DNA of 64,000 bases from Armatimonadota bacterium (lineage in GTDB: Bacteria > Armatimonadota > JADLDR01): NCBI GenBank assembly GCA_020846535.1, contig JADLDR010000118.1:62001-126000 (forward strand). Direction: 5' to 3'. Made by a program: the position numbers and the translations under genes. Below, piece by piece: positions 19,038 through 60,645 of the stretch; within the stretch, counting starts at the first letter, position 1; each line of letters begins with the position of its first letter. Under the pieces are notes generated by a model. That model ran no database searches and was not told the origin of the DNA. It saw only the letters and a program-made list of their open reading frames with translations.

Positions 19038-19170
19038 TATCGATGCAGTCTGCAAGGAGCGAAAGCTCCGCGGCCATCTCCAGCGTCACAAAGAAACGAG
19101 AAGGCTCTGCTCGTTGGGCACTACCCAGGAGATTGCTTCGTCGCTATGCTCCTCGCAGGCGGCATCGATA
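19038..19170. repeat. palindromic dispersed repeat, copy B
   Basis: 9-bp perfect terminal inverted repeat TATCGATGC/GCATCGATA; internal ccatctccagcg...ccaggagattgcttcgtcgctatgctcctcgcag. Confidence 0.75.
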
Positions 19171-21037: not shown

Positions 21038-22639
21038 ATGTTCTCTACGGGCAGTATGATCGCCGGGCTGGCGGCTGCGGTTCTGGGGGCGTCGGGCGGC
21101 CCGGCGCTGGATTGGGAGAGATTCCGGCCCTATGTGGAGGGCTTCAACCGGAACGACCGGGAAACGGTGGTCAACGCTATCGATAACGCCTCCGCCTGGG
21201 AGTGGATGAAGGCCAATATCCCCTTCTTCGAGTGCCCGGAAAAGGAGATCGAGGAGATTTACTATTTCCGCTGGTGGACTTACCGGAAGCATATCCGGCA
21301 GACTCCGGACGGCTTCGTGGTCACCGAGTTCCTGCCCGATGTGCCCTGGGCGAAAAAATACAATACCATCGACTGCCCTGCCGGGCACCACTTCCGGGAG
21401 GGCCGGTGGATCCGGGAGCCCCGCTACCTGGACGATTATTCGCCCTTCTGGTTCCGCAAGGGGGGTGATCCGCTCCAATACAGCTTCTGGGCCGCCGATT
21501 CCATCTACCAGCGATACCTGGTCACCGGAGGCCGCGATCTGACCTGCGGACTCCTGGACGATCTGGTTCAAAACTACGGCGAGTGGGAGAAGAAGCACCT
21601 CCTGGAAAGCGGGATCTTCTGGCAGATCGACAGCCACGAGGGGGGCGAGTTCTCCATCGGCGGGAACGGCTGCCGCCCGATGATCAATGCCTATATGTAC
21701 GGCGACGCCGGGGCCATCGCACGCATCGCCGCCCTCGCGGGCCAGGAAAAGACCGCCAGAGAGTTCCGAGACAAAGCCAGGCGACTCAAGCGGCTCGTCC
21801 AGGAGAAGCTGTGGGACAAAGAAGCGCGCTTTTTCAAGACCCTGCGGGCGGAGGGAACAGGCGGCGACTACGGCAACACCGCCGAAACCGACTGCAAGCC
21901 GGGCGACCTAGTGGATGTGCGCGAGATTTTCGGGTACGTGCCCTGGTATTTCCACCTTCCCGACCGGGGGAAAGGCTATGAATCGGCCTGGAAGCAGCTT
22001 TTCGACCGGCAGGGCTTTTACGCACCTTACGGCCCTATCTCGGCGGAGAGGCGGCACCGAAAATTCATGAGTCCGCACGCCCACGAATGCCTCTGGAACG
22101 GCCCGAGCTGGCCTTTTTCCACCTCCCAGACGCTCACGGCCCTGGCGAACCTCCTCAGCGACTACCCGCAGAAGGTCATGGCGAAAAAGGATTACCTGGA
22201 ACTGCTCCACACCTACACCCGCTCCCACCGCCTCCGCCTGCCGGACGGCTCCATCCTTCCCTGGATCGATGAGAACCTCCATCCCGACACCGGCGAGTGG
22301 CTGGCCCGTTCCATTCTCCACAAAGCGGGCCGCCCCGACCGGGACCGCGGCAAGGACTACAACCATTCCACCTTCTGCGATCTGGTGATCACCGGCCTGG
22401 CCGGCCTGCGCCCCCGCCCGGACGATATCGTGGAGGTGAACCCCCTCGTGCCCGCCGGGACCTGGGACTATTTCTGCCTGGACGGCATTCCCTACCACGG
22501 CTCTACCCTCACCGTCCTCTACGACCGCACCGGAGGCCGCTACCGCCGCGGCAAGGGGCTGCGGGTTTTCGCAGGGAGCCGCGAGATCGCCGCCTCCCCG
22601 AAGCTGGGGAGGGGGCGGGGAAAGCTGGAGAGACCATGA
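21038..22639 (+). CDS. (alpha/alpha)6 barrel glycosidase, MGH1/trehalase-like
   Basis: YYFRWWTYRKHIRQTPDGFVVTEFLPDV...SYLWNGPSWPFSTSQTLTALANLL-like segment (HECLWNGPSWPFSTSQTLTALANLL). Confidence 0.7.
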   Translation: MFSTGSMIAGLAAAVLGASGGPALDWERFRPYVEGFNRNDRETVVNAIDNASAWEWMKANIPFFECPEKEIEEIYYFRWWTYRKHIRQTPDGFVVTEFLPDVPWAKKYNTIDCPAGHHFREGRWIREPRYLDDYSPFWFRKGGDPLQYSFWAADSIYQRYLVTGGRDLTCGLLDDLVQNYGEWEKKHLLESGIFWQIDSHEGGEFSIGGNGCRPMINAYMYGDAGAIARIAALAGQEKTAREFRDKARRLKRLVQEKLWDKEARFFKTLRAEGTGGDYGNTAETDCKPGDLVDVREIFGYVPWYFHLPDRGKGYESAWKQLFDRQGFYAPYGPISAERRHRKFMSPHAHECLWNGPSWPFSTSQTLTALANLLSDYPQKVMAKKDYLELLHTYTRSHRLRLPDGSILPWIDENLHPDTGEWLARSILHKAGRPDRDRGKDYNHSTFCDLVITGLAGLRPRPDDIVEVNPLVPAGTWDYFCLDGIPYHGSTLTVLYDRTGGRYRRGKGLRVFAGSREIAASPKLGRGRGKLERP

Positions 22640-23945
22640 CACACCAACACCTTCCCACCCTTCTGCTGCTTTTGGCATCCGCAGGGGCGGCTTTTGGCGC
22701 GAAAGGAGAGGCCATGCTGGCGAAACCGACCCCGAGCAGTCGGCCTGGCAGGATATGGAACTGGAGATGTTCCTCTGCCTGGATCCCTGCACCTGGCAAA
22801 ATACCGAGTATGACAACCACACCATCCCGCTCAGCGCCATCAATCCGGATAAGCTGGATACCGACCAGTGGGCGCGGGTGGCGAAATCCTTCGGGGCCAA
22901 GCAGATTCTTTTTGTCGCCAAGCATACCGGTGGCTTCTGCTGGTGGCAGACCCAAACCAGCGATTACGGCGTCCGCCAACTGCCCTGGCGGGGCGGCAAG
23001 GGGGATGTGGTGGCCGACCTGGCCGCCTCCTGCCGCAAATACCGCCTGAAGCTGGCCCTCTACCTCAGCCCGTGCGACGATGTTCACGGGGCCGCGGTCG
23101 GGGGCAGGTGCAAAACGACCGCGGCCCAGGAAGCCTACAACAGAGTGTACCGCCAGCAGCTCACCGAACTTCTGAGCCGCTACGGCCCGGTCGGCGAGGT
23201 CTGGTTTGACGGGATCTGCGTCATCGAGGTAGGCGATATCCTCAAGCGGCATGCGCCGAAGGCCATGATCTTCCAGGGGCCTCATGCCACGATCCGCTGG
23301 GCGGGCAGCGAGGAGGGCTACATCCCCTACCCCGCCTGGAACGCCGTTCCCGAGACCGACGCCCGCACCGGCACAGCTACCGCGCAGCACGGCAGCCTGG
23401 AAGGGGCTGTCTGGCTGCCCCTGGAGGTCAACACGGTCAATGTCCGCCCGCACTGCTGGTTCTGGAAAAGCGCCCCGGAGCGCAGGCTGAAATCCCTCGA
23501 TGAATTGATGGACTGCTACCATCGCTCCGTCGGGCACGGCGGGGTCTTCCTGCTGAATCAGACGCCCGACACCACCGGCCTCATCCCTGCGGAGGACGCC
23601 CGCCAGGCGGCGGAGTTTGGGAAGGAACTCCGCCGCAGGTTCGGCAGGGCTGTAGCCTCCACCCGCGGGCGCGGCGATGTGGTGGAACTGGCCCTCCCTC
23701 ACCCGGCCCGGATAGATCACATCATCACCATGGAGGATATCCGCCAGGGGGAGCGCGTCCGGGATTACGTTCTGGAAGGGCTTGCAGGCGGGGAATGGAG
23801 GCCGCTCTGCCGGGGAACCGCTATCGGCCACAAAAAGATAGACCGCTTCCCGGCGGTGGAGGTATCGAGGGTGCGCTTCCGCTGCCTGCGCTCCGCCGCT
23901 CCGCCCCTCATCCGGAAGCTGGCGGCGTATGCGGCGGGGGAGTAA
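22636..23945 (+). pseudogene. GH29 alpha-L-fucosidase, signal peptide separated from the catalytic domain by a frameshift
   Basis: Signal peptide MTHQHLPTLLLLLASAGAAFGAKGEAMLAKPTP in frame 1; EQSAWQDMELEMFLCLDPCTWQNTEYDN... in another frame. Confidence 0.75.
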
Positions 23946-23957
23946 GGCCGGGCCCTT

Positions 23958-24091
23958 GGCGATCTGCGTGACTGTGATCCGGCTGCCTTCGATGCGGGCG
24001 ATGCCGTCCTCGCCCACCACGATCCCTGACGATATGGCCGCCATCGAAACCGCCCCCTTTCTTTGCGTATTATACCATAAAAACGTTATTA
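23958..24091 (-). repeat. 134-bp direct repeat copy 1: promoter and first 29 codons of a DUF433 gene (truncated)
   Basis: 131/134 identical by eye to 25274-25407; MAAISSGIVVGEDGIARIEGSRITVTQIA, then homology ends. Confidence 0.9.
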
Positions 24092-24101
24092 TCTCTATAG
24101 G

Positions 24102-24182
24102 CTGTGCCGGATCATCGATCTGATCGTCTACCGGCTCTACGGCCTGGCAGAAGAGGAGATTGCAGTGGTGGAAGGGAGATGA
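24102..24182 (+). pseudogene. C-terminal tail of an N6-adenine methylase / type IIG R-M-like gene
   Basis: RIIDLIVYRLYGLAEEEIAVVEGR* resembles the common '(I/L)DxLVYxLYGLTEEEIxIVEG' tail. Confidence 0.55.
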
Positions 24183-24197
24183 ACGCCGGAATCTGTT

Positions 24198-24614
24198 TCA
24201 AGATCGGTATATCAGAACAGCGAAGCCTTCCTGTGTGAAGTGGTGATCGTGGGTCAGAATAGAGGTAATACTCAATTGGCGCATGGCGTTCATCGAGATG
24301 CAATCTACCAGACTATAGGCTTTGTCAGGGCGGCTCTCATATAAACCCAATCCTGCCATGAAAGAGCTATGCGTTTGATGTAGAACAGTTACATGATCGC
24401 TTTTCAGGATGGCCTGCACAACTCTGGTGGCTTGGCGACGCAGGTAATCTCCCCGACCGGAAAAGGCCGACAAAACTTCGCCCAGTACCTCTTCCGTTGT
24501 TACCAGATGGGCGTTTTTCAATTCTGCCATAGCCTGGACCGCAGGAGCATGCCACGGGTCGTCGGGCAGGATACTTGCCACCCAGTATAGGGTATCGGCA
24601 AAAACGAAGTTCAT
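24198..24614 (-). CDS. PIN-domain toxin (VapC-like)
   Basis: FVFADTLYWVASILPDDPWH...SLVDCISMNAMRQLSITSILTHDHHFTQEGF. Confidence 0.85.
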   Translation of the reverse strand: MNFVFADTLYWVASILPDDPWHAPAVQAMAELKNAHLVTTEEVLGEVLSAFSGRGDYLRRQATRVVQAILKSDHVTVLHQTHSSFMAGLGLYESRPDKAYSLVDCISMNAMRQLSITSILTHDHHFTQEGFAVLIYRS

Positions 24615-24865
24615 CTCTTCGGGGTATCGTAAAGATAGTGATCAAGCTGGTCGGTGAAATCGGAGGGCAGCTTTGCCAGTTCGTCTGCCGGAATTTCCGC
24701 AGCGATTTCCGCCAGCACATCGGCAATAGGCCGGGCATCTGTCCATTCCACTTTTTCTTCATCAGCAGGAAAAACGATCACTCGCAGCTTCCGATCCGAA
24801 AAATCGGGAACACTCGCTGTGATCTCTTCCCACTTTCCTTCCATATCAAGCAGCGGCATAGCCAT
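24611..24865 (-). CDS. cognate antitoxin-like protein
   Basis: 84-aa ORF overlapping the PIN gene start by 4 nt (ATGA); order typical of antitoxin-toxin operons. Confidence 0.65.
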   Translation of the reverse strand: MAMPLLDMEGKWEEITASVPDFSDRKLRVIVFPADEEKVEWTDARPIADVLAEIAAEIPADELAKLPSDFTDQLDHYLYDTPKR

Positions 24866-25036
24866 TGGAATCGCCTCCTGGCCTCATTATAGCATAAATT
24901 GCGTGCTTCGGAAATGCTCCACCGTTCTTCTGTTCAAAGGAGCCTCAACAGGAGGATACGGTTATATATATTCTCATGGATCGAAACAGTTGTTAAATAG
25001 TTCTCGGGAAATGTTCGTCCATATAGAAGCGGACGC

Positions 25037-25360
25037 TCATGCAGAGCGTTCCTGCCGGTGCCGCTTTCGTTCCCGGATCGTCTCCACCCACGCCTGGCGC
25101 GCCGGGTCCGCCTGCTGCGCTTCCCAGGCGGCTCGATGGGCCCGGTCATCGGCCTCCATCCGGACATCCTTATGGTCATGATAATAGGCCAGCACCGCTT
25201 CAACCTGCCCCAGCGCCAAGTGCGTATGATTGCGTTGAATCTCTTCAGGACTCCAGTCGCCGTTATGTTCACAGGCGATCTGCGTGACTGTGATCCGGCT
25301 GCCCTCAATGCGGGCGATGCCGTCTTCGCCCACCACGATCCCTGACGATATGGCCGCCAT
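25037..25360 (-). CDS. DUF433 domain protein (VapB-like)
   Basis: GIARIEGSRITVTQIACEHNGDWSPEEIQRNHTHLALGQVEAVLAYYHDHKDVRMEADDRA. Confidence 0.8.
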   Translation of the reverse strand: MAAISSGIVVGEDGIARIEGSRITVTQIACEHNGDWSPEEIQRNHTHLALGQVEAVLAYYHDHKDVRMEADDRAHRAAWEAQQADPARQAWVETIRERKRHRQERSA

Positions 25361-25407
25361 CGAAACCGCCCCCTTTCTTTGCGTATTATACCATAAAAAC
25401 GTTATTA
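25274..25407 (-). repeat. 134-bp direct repeat copy 2 (within and upstream of the intact DUF433 gene)
   Basis: Same sequence as 23958-24091 with 3 substitutions. Confidence 0.9.
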
Positions 25408-25416
25408 CTTCCATCG

Positions 25417-25560
25417 TAAGGGCCGGAGGAAAGCCGTTTGACAAGCATGATCCCGATAGCAAGTTCTGGCTGCCTGCCGACGCTACGAAGAGTTCGGCAG
25501 GCGCATCCCCGCCCACTTCCGCAGCGACATGGAGCCCATCCGCGCCACCGGCGCGATATC
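25417..25560 (+). pseudogene. scrambled remnant resembling GH29 fucosidase segments
   Basis: GGKPFDKHDPDSKFWLPAD in one frame and RRYEEFGRRIPAHFRSDMEPIRA in another. Confidence 0.35.
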
Positions 25561-25652
25561 CGCCTCCCCTTCTGAAAAACCTGGAACTTTAAGCGGCCCC
25601 AGGCGTTTTACTGTAATGGCAGTATTGCAAATCCACCGAACGGAGGGAAACT

Positions 25653-26645
25653 ATGGAGTATCGTTCTCTGGGGCGAACCGGGGCGCAGGTAAGTATGCTG
25701 TGCCTGGGCTGCATGAATTTCGGCTGGGGCACGGAAGAGGCCGATGCCATCGCCGTCATCCACCGCGCGCTGGACGCCGGGATCAACTTTCTGGACACCG
25801 CCAATGTCTACGCCCGGGGCTCCAGCGAGCAGATGACTGGCAAGGCCCTGACCAACGGGCGGCGGGACAGAGTGTTCCTCGCCACCAAAGTACACGGCAA
25901 GATGGGGGAGGAGCCGAATGACTGGGGCAACCACCGCTTCCACATCATGCGCCAGTGTGAGGAATCTCTGAAGCGGCTGGGAACCGACCATATCGATCTC
26001 TACCAGATACATCGCCCCCAGCCCTCGGTGCCCATCGATGAAACGCTCCGGGCACTCGACGACCTGGTACGCCAGGGTAAAATCCGCTATATCGGGACCA
26101 GCACCTTCGCCGCCTGGCAGTTGTGCGAATCGCTCTGGGTCTCCAAGGAACTTGGCCTGAACCGCTTCGCCTGCGAGCAGCCGCCCTACCACATCCTGGA
26201 CAGGCGCATCGAAAGGGAACTGATTCCTTTTTGCCAGACTTACGGCTTCGGGATCATCCCCTGGTCTCCCCTGGCAGGCGGGCTGCTGACCGGCAAATAC
26301 CGGCGCGGCGGGACAGGCCCCGAAGGCTCCCGCTACGAAAAGGGTGGCCCGGAGCAGCGTTTCACCGAAGCGGCCCTGAATATCGTGGACGCCCTCCGCC
26401 CTATCGTAGAAGAGAAAGGCTGTTCCATGAGCCAGTTCGCCCTGGCCTGGTGCGCCCGCCAGCCCGGAGTCACCAGCCCCATCATCGGCCCGCGCACCAT
26501 GGAGCAGCTCGAAGACAACCTCAAGGCCGCCGAAATCGCCATCACCGACGAAGACCGGCAAAAAATCGACTCCCTGGTCAAGCCCGGAACCCATGTCAGC
26601 GAATACTACGAAGCGGACTTCGGCCCTCACCCGCACCGGTGGTAG
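25653..26645 (+). CDS. aldo/keto reductase
   Basis: MEYRSLGRTGAQVSMLCLGCMNFGWG...NFLDTANVYARGSSEQMTGKAL...GIIPWSPLAGGLLTGKY. Confidence 0.95.
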   Translation: MEYRSLGRTGAQVSMLCLGCMNFGWGTEEADAIAVIHRALDAGINFLDTANVYARGSSEQMTGKALTNGRRDRVFLATKVHGKMGEEPNDWGNHRFHIMRQCEESLKRLGTDHIDLYQIHRPQPSVPIDETLRALDDLVRQGKIRYIGTSTFAAWQLCESLWVSKELGLNRFACEQPPYHILDRRIERELIPFCQTYGFGIIPWSPLAGGLLTGKYRRGGTGPEGSRYEKGGPEQRFTEAALNIVDALRPIVEEKGCSMSQFALAWCARQPGVTSPIIGPRTMEQLEDNLKAAEIAITDEDRQKIDSLVKPGTHVSEYYEADFGPHPHRW

Positions 26646-31107: not shown

Positions 31108-31836
31108 TTAAAACTCGCCGGGAGGATTGGCGACAGCGGTTTTAGCCTGCTCGGCTGCGCTGGGCCACCAACCGGGCCACTTCTGGGTGTCGTATTTGTT
31201 GGAATAGCGCATCCTCATATACTTGACATGCCCATCGGCGAAAGCCACGTTCCCGCCTTCCTGATGCCAGTAAGGCAGATTGCTGTAGCCCTTGCCCGGA
31301 GGTCCGTCCGGGTTGTGTTCGTCCCAGTTGGGTCCCAGACAGGAATCATGTGTTCTCAGCGGCCAGGCGACCGCGTCCATATAAAGGACGCACTGGGCGG
31401 GCTTGTCGATGCCTGCCTCATTTGAGATGCCGGACATGTGGCAGTTATAGCCATAGCTCCAATACCATTTCGGGTCGATGGGCGGCCAGGAAAACCAGTT
31501 GCCCGCATCCGGAACCGGGCGGCTCGGGCACTGGTAGGCCCCGACGCTCTTGACATACGGGTGCAGCAGGCCCCAATACATAAAACAGCCCCCTGCGCCC
31601 TGGCTTCCGTTGATGGTGACGCAGCAGCCGTAGCAACTCGGCATCATGTTGCCGTCATAATCCTGGTTGTACATGAGCCAGGCGTTGGCGAGCTGCTTGA
31701 GGTTCGAAGCGCAACTGATGGCGCGTGCCTTTTCGCGTGCCTGCGCGAAAACAGGGAAAAGAATGGCGGCAAGGATTGCGATGATCGCAATAACCACAAG
31801 CAACTCAATCAGTGTGAAACCTTTTCTGCGATACAT
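31108..31836 (-). CDS. DUF1559 pseudopilin (prepilin-type N-terminal methylation motif, H-X9-DG domain)
   Basis: [36 protein letters not shown]...[17 protein letters not shown]. Confidence 0.95.
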
Positions 31837-32123: not shown

Positions 32124-32745
32124 TTATAGAGGGCGGTCTACGCCGTCAGGGTAGTAGATGCCGCTGCCTGCGCCCTTGTAATTGTTGATCCTCTCGATCT
32201 TGTTCCACTTCACATGCCCGTCGCAGTAGGAGAGGTTGCCCCTGCCCTGGTGGCGGGCCTCGATCCAGTCGATGCGGTTCGGGAAGTTAGGATTGTTATT
32301 GGGGGGTGGCCGGGCCGTATTTGGATTCGAAGAACAGACCTACCGATGCCGGAGCCTGAATCGCGGCTAGAGAGCCGAAGCCGAGGGCGCAGCAGTTATA
32401 GCCATAGTCGCCATAGTAAGTGCCGGCAGGCCAGCAGGTCGGAGCGCACCGCTCGCTTCCGCGGCTGGGGCATTTGAACATATCGTTGTTCTTGGTATAA
32501 GGGTTCAGCAAAGCCTTCTGGTAGAAGCATGCGCCCCCGATGCAGTAGGGCATCGCCTTTTCGTCATAATCCTGGGCATACATGACCCAGGCCGTGCCGA
32601 CCTGTCTGAGGTTGCTCGCACAACTGATCGAGCGGGCCTTCTCCCTTGCCTGCGCGAAAACGGGGAAGAGAATCGCCGCCAGAATCGCGATGATCGCGAT
32701 GACGACGAGCAGTTCGATCAGCGTGAAACCGTTCCGGCGTTGCAT
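32124..32745 (-). pseudogene. second DUF1559 pseudopilin, frameshifted in a G6/C6 run
   Basis: [15 protein letters not shown]...[11 protein letters not shown] | frameshift | [58 protein letters not shown]. Confidence 0.85.
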
Positions 32746-44252: not shown

Positions 44253-44312
44253 GACGATGCAGTCTGCGAGGAGCGAAAGCTCCGCGACAATCTCCAGTCT
44301 CACTCCAACGGG
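44253..44312. repeat. half copy of the palindromic dispersed repeat (copy C)
   Basis: gatgcagtctgcgaggagcgaaagctccgcgacaatctccag matches the left arm of copy B. Confidence 0.7.
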
Positions 44313-55787: not shown

Positions 55788-55905
55788 ATGTCCTTACGAG
55801 GGGCATAGCGACGCGGCAATTTCCAGTGCCACAAATGTCCAAGAAGGCTCGCCCATTAGTGTGATCCTGGAGATTGCCGCGTCACTATGCTCCTCGTAAG
55901 GACAT
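55788..55905. repeat. palindromic dispersed repeat, copy E
   Basis: 14-bp perfect terminal inverted repeat ATGTCCTTACGAGG/CCTCGTAAGGACAT; internal gcggcaatttccag...cctggagattgccgc. Confidence 0.85.
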
Positions 55906-60259: not shown

Positions 60260-60645
60260 GGTGGTTTCGTAGGGGCGCGCCTGCGTGCTTGCCCCATACG
60301 CATCCAGATCAGGTCTTCTGTCCCACCGAGGCGGGATTCGGGGCTTTGATAGACCGTTACCTAACCCCCCTGCCCCCTTCCCGAAGCGGGCAGGGGGAGG
60401 AGATGGCACCGTAAATGACCACACAATCTACTCCCCTCTCCCCGAAACGGGGAGAGGGGTTAGAGGAGAGAGGTAACCCCGCCCCCATGACCGGAGGATC
60501 TTTCCCCTTATCTTGTCCCTATGGGGCAACCCATCGGGTCGTCCTCCCAGGCGAAAGTCCTGGTAGCATCATGGCGGCGAGGCGGCCACCTACAGGCCCC
60601 CTGGTATGACCCGACAAACAGAAATCCCCCCTAGCGAGGTGACAT

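Follow-up and report, generated by a model that had tools for sequence, protein, structure and literature searches.

The gap between two metabolic genes, encoding a GH29 alpha-L-fucosidase and an aldo/keto reductase, is occupied by toxin-antitoxin remnants. We consider it likely that these represent a decayed and rearranged toxin-antitoxin locus, in which one apparently live VapBC-like module lies beside one orphaned antitoxin of the DUF433 family. All parts are of known kinds, and ordinary decay and rearrangement suffice, with no new system required. Coordinates refer to the window, i.e. the whole stretch of 64,000 nucleotides that was analysed, which comes from a metagenome draft genome of 6.1 Mb (253 contigs, 8.4% estimated contamination). 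The initial annotation of the locus had overlooked the stub of a DUF5615 toxin gene (24993-25040), the tail of a restriction-enzyme gene (24093-24182) and the nature of DUF433 as an antitoxin. The following features were assigned:

22755-23945, plus strand: GH29 alpha-L-fucosidase gene, left flank (PF01120, E 1.3e-28)
23958-24091, minus strand: left copy of the repeat, holding the promoter region and codons 1-29 of a truncated DUF433 gene with its ATG at 24044 (98% to the right copy over 134 bp)
24093-24182, plus strand: last 29 aa (C-terminal tail) of a type IIG restriction enzyme-methyltransferase, the rest missing (PADLOC models)
24198-24614, minus strand: PIN-domain toxin, VapC-like, 138 aa (VapC20 in PDB, E 5e-5)
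24611-24865, minus strand: 84-aa putative antitoxin of the PIN toxin, overlapping the PIN gene by 4 bp (pairing with PIN homologues)
24993-25040, minus strand: DUF5615 toxin gene stub, 15 codons then TAA, overlapping the DUF433 stop by 4 bp (paralogue and HMM match)
25037-25360, minus strand: complete DUF433 antitoxin gene, 107 aa (PF04255; full-length alignment with paralogues of the same genome)
25274-25407, minus strand: right copy of the repeat, with the promoter region and codons 1-29 of the DUF433 gene (134-bp alignment with the left copy)
25653-26645, plus strand: aldo/keto reductase gene, right flank (PF00248, E 1.6e-85)

The segment has a G+C content of about 50%, whereas the flanks reach 62-67%. 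No convincing gene was recognised at 25408-25652, which separates the DUF433 promoter from the reductase gene; this stretch may contain another gene remnant, and its matches elsewhere in the genome are only 32 and 30 bp long. A 511-codon ORF (22509-24044) running antisense through the GH29 gene from the left DUF433 start was attributed to G+C-rich coding DNA and rejected.

A DUF433 antitoxin gene with a truncated toxin partner

The DUF433 gene had been described as intact, which holds for its 107 codons; its role is that of the antitoxin of a DUF433/DUF5615 module whose toxin is reduced to a stub. The protein scores 34.3 bits against PF04255 (E 2.1e-8, cut-off 23.6 bits), and no relative of solved structure was found for it by sequence. 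Directly downstream, where a complete DUF5615 toxin gene was sought, there is an ORF of only 15 codons consisting of the ATG opening MSVRFYMDEHFPRTI followed by TAA. This region resembles the DUF5615 toxin at C70 (52% over 25 aa, E 6.4e-6), and the DUF5615 HMM matches at 25040-24966 (i-E 0.0012), revealing weak homology past the stub to about 24966. The stub is short and the match modest, so that, judged from the sequence, the assignment is convincing mainly by the position, the overlap and the start motif, which agree with those of the paralogues. The remainder of the DUF5615 gene was not found elsewhere in the region, and the DUF5615 toxin gave no match in a plasmid collection.

The genome contains four further DUF433 genes of this long-tailed type, at C131, C70, C232 and C214. 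At C131 and C70 the DUF433 gene is followed by an intact DUF5615 (PF18480) gene with a 4-bp overlap. The DUF433 gene at C232 is also intact and overlaps a downstream DUF5615 gene by 4 bp, and two stops, TAG (codon 68) and TGA (codon 92), interrupt the frame of this toxin gene. At C214 the antitoxin gene is broken and no toxin was found. Ordered by state, these loci form a within-genome series running from both genes intact (C131 and C70), through a toxin with stops (C232) and a stub (the window), to an antitoxin that is broken as well (C214). This order is what one would expect if the toxin must fail before its antitoxin; it is suggestive only, since sequencing errors may account for some of the stops and frameshifts in metagenome genomes. 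Within the phylum sample, DUF433 lies upstream in 17 of the 19 DUF5615 loci, the exceptions being one locus at a contig end and one fragment matched over 45 codons. No complete toxin clearly devoid of an antitoxin was seen in the genome itself or among these 19 loci, and antitoxins without a complete toxin do occur.

Three further observations concern this family. The C232 pair is seen at L058 (2850-3209) and L027 (1824-2171). Another genome of the phylum carries an array of DUF433, DUF5615 and DUF433 (L065, 1402-2594), with no DUF5615 detected after the second DUF433. At C131, a gene that resembles a type IIG restriction enzyme, when its sequence is read by eye, has its 3′ end facing the DUF433/DUF5615 pair.

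PIN-COG2442 (DUF433) toxin-antitoxin systems were predicted by Makarova et al. 2009 (PMC2701414), and vapBC10 of Synechocystis is a studied example (PMC3834315). The present family resembles them in that the DUF433 gene lies upstream of and overlaps a PIN-like toxin gene, as in the intact pairs at C131 and C70, but differs in its partner family, DUF5615 (Mut7-C/PIN-like), and, in the window, in a toxin cut down to a 15-codon stub. Stand-alone DUF433 antitoxins have been listed for Synechocystis (PMC4963859). Like the locus in the window, these have a complete DUF433 gene that lacks a complete toxin partner; in the window, however, vestiges of the lost toxin can still be recognised. The DUF433 protein of the window is probably an orphan antitoxin, either idle or at most neutralising the DUF5615 toxins of its paralogues.

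The PIN/antitoxin pair

Both ORFs of the PIN/antitoxin pair that had been reported between the repeats were found there. The closest solved relative of the PIN protein is the toxin VapC20 (5wzf), and its match to NCBIfam TIGR00028 (E 0.0018) falls under the cut-off. The acidic residues D7, E46, D104 and D123 are invariant in 17 aligned sequences. For the 84-aa protein, a search for a recognised DNA-binding domain gave no Pfam match at E<=1 and no NCBIfam match. A PIN homologue nevertheless stands beside a homologue of this small protein in 17 of 22 phylum loci. The pair thus shares with VapBC systems the order of a small antitoxin and then a PIN toxin, the 4-bp overlap, the conserved acidic residues and its retention as a pair in the phylum, and departs from them in an antitoxin without a Pfam family at that threshold and a toxin under the NCBIfam subfamily cut-off. 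By its sequence features the module is VapBC-like and complete, its two genes are kept together across the phylum, and it probably functions today as ordinary VapBC systems do: the small protein, translated just before PIN, would bind and silence this ribonuclease. Within about 1.5 kb on each side of the antitoxin/PIN homologues, DUF433 of the window type was found at none of the 22 phylum loci, which indicates that the neighbourhood seen in the window is local.

The 134-bp direct repeat

The two 134-bp direct repeats of the initial annotation were verified at their exact coordinates and with their three differences (left/right: 23988 T/C, 23991 G/A and 24009 C/T), as was their content, a promoter region and the first 29 codons of DUF433. 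The part in front of the ATG measures 47 bp and contains an extended -10 (TATGGTATAAT). The DUF433 HMM matches the left copy at 24050-23958. As had been claimed, this copy breaks off after TQIA (codon 29) near the GH29 end, precisely 12 bp beyond the GH29 stop, and the right copy runs on into the full 107-codon gene. The match between the copies (E 1.8e-60 in the 6.1-Mb genome) is far above chance, and their longest exact common stretch is 82 bp. The draft genome of 6.1 Mb yielded no third copy, its next-best match (78% over 64 bp) lying in a paralogous DUF433 gene; a mobile repeat element was rejected, as the repeat occurs in two copies only.

All three differences are synonymous transitions. 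For three substitutions placed at random in the 134-bp repeat, the probability of all being synonymous is about 0.005, or about 0.008 if only transitions are considered. The changes therefore probably arose in a copy under selection, which would have been either the right-hand gene, complete as it is, or one of the two copies at a time when the left one was not yet truncated.

Other repeats occur in the window. A near-perfect inverted repeat at 55788-55905 (46-nt arms, 26-nt loop) belongs to a dispersed hairpin family with 61 matches at about 40 places in the genome, and a 49-nt direct repeat (19041-19089 and 44255-44303, 90% identical) resembles this family by eye. The 197-nt direct repeat at 31640-31836 and 32549-32745 (77% identical, 909 bp apart) probably reflects tandem paralogous genes. 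A 194-nt inverted repeat (80% complementary) has one arm near each window end, at 1729-1922 and 60291-60484.

Joints and history of the locus

Four joints were recognised, at 23957/23958 (GH29 end to DUF433 codon 29), at 24091/24092 (DUF433 promoter to restriction-enzyme tail), at roughly 24966-24940 (toxin stub to antitoxin leader) and at 25407/25408 (right repeat border). The 29-aa tail is matched by three PADLOC IIG models (PDLC03612 and others) at their last 20-25 or so positions, with a best E of 0.0013. It is like type IIG restriction enzyme-methyltransferases at these last residues and unlike them in that the tail alone is left, the methylase and nuclease parts being absent; no source or relative of it was found in the same genome. 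The recognisable tail starts no more than about 20 bp from the left repeat border, so that the joint near 24091/24092 cut through a restriction-enzyme gene.

From the directly observed identity and order of these parts, a likely course of events can be proposed. A DUF433/DUF5615 operon would have lost its toxin except for the first 15 codons, the antitoxin staying at full length, with a separate VapBC-like antitoxin/PIN operon lying directly downstream. If the unit 24092-25407 (about 1.3 kb) was duplicated in tandem, the joint 24091/24092 would arise directly, and a later deletion of the left unit down to its final 134 bp would have joined these to the GH29 end (23957/23958). Tandem duplication followed by deletion, one of the two histories put forward initially, is compatible with this anatomy and likely fits best; it is our preferred reading and is unproven. 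In the 60 relatives compared, which share only the phylum, the better matches lay in the flanking enzyme genes, and a search of a named genome collection returned one distant Acidobacteria match; no close relative showing the intermediate states was thus among the genomes compared.

The other history, repeat-mediated insertion of a toxin-antitoxin cassette, found no positive support. The right end of the PIN/antitoxin segment adjoins the truncated DUF5615 gene rather than the repeat border, an unrelated restriction-enzyme tail lies inside, the repeat has no other copies, and no recombinase or transposase is encoded between the repeats, where the ORFs comprise the body of the DUF433 gene, the toxin stub, the antitoxin and PIN. 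The feature gives no evidence for an excisable cassette. Homologous (Campbell-type) insertion, in which a circle carrying a DUF433 allele, the antitoxin/PIN pair and the restriction tail recombined at the 5′ end of a resident DUF433 gene, is in our estimation unlikely. It would account for the layout of repeat, insert and repeat, for the lower G+C of the insert and for antitoxin/PIN pairs elsewhere not standing beside DUF433, the three synonymous differences would suit two alleles of different lineages, and the segment could then also excise. However, the resident site would have needed an already truncated DUF433 gene 12 bp past GH29, the toxin stub reveals a joint inside the insert too, and there is neither a recombinase-like ORF nor a third repeat copy.

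An assembly chimera, with two strain variants or contigs joined at the 134-bp repeat, appears distinctly improbable. The draft status and contamination of the genome are in keeping with such an error, and the 3-base difference is of the kind expected between two strain alleles; however, the exact stretch of 82 bp is short enough for ordinary paired reads, and the joints at the stub and to the left of the left copy do not lie at repeat ends where repeat collapse could have made them.

The promoter sequences bear on two functional readings. The antitoxin/PIN operon has its own promoter-like site upstream, TATGCTATAAT, and the left repeat copy offers a candidate promoter (10/12 matches) in which TATAAT, preceded by TG, is separated by a 17-bp spacer from a -35-like TAGAGA that the junction contributes. 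A functional three-gene unit, with DUF433 as an extra regulator or second antitoxin of PIN and the left promoter copy as operator, would draw on the intact extended -10 of that copy, the common orientation of the three genes and the established place of DUF433 (COG2442) among the antitoxin families of PIN toxins (PMC2701414). We regard it as very improbable: no other sampled antitoxin/PIN locus adjoins DUF433 of the window type, which pairs with DUF5615, the PIN operon has the site of its own, and the DUF433 gene still carries the start of its own toxin. Very improbable, too, is that the left repeat serves as a captured promoter, directed antisense into the fucosidase 3′ end and regulating the fucosidase, with the orphan DUF433 acting on it and on the promoters of its paralogues.

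On the preferred reading of decay and rearrangement, the account of this locus is corrected in that DUF433 is an antitoxin with a truncated toxin. The locus is otherwise ordinary; together with its paralogues it makes up a small series of decay stages of one toxin-antitoxin family within a single genome.
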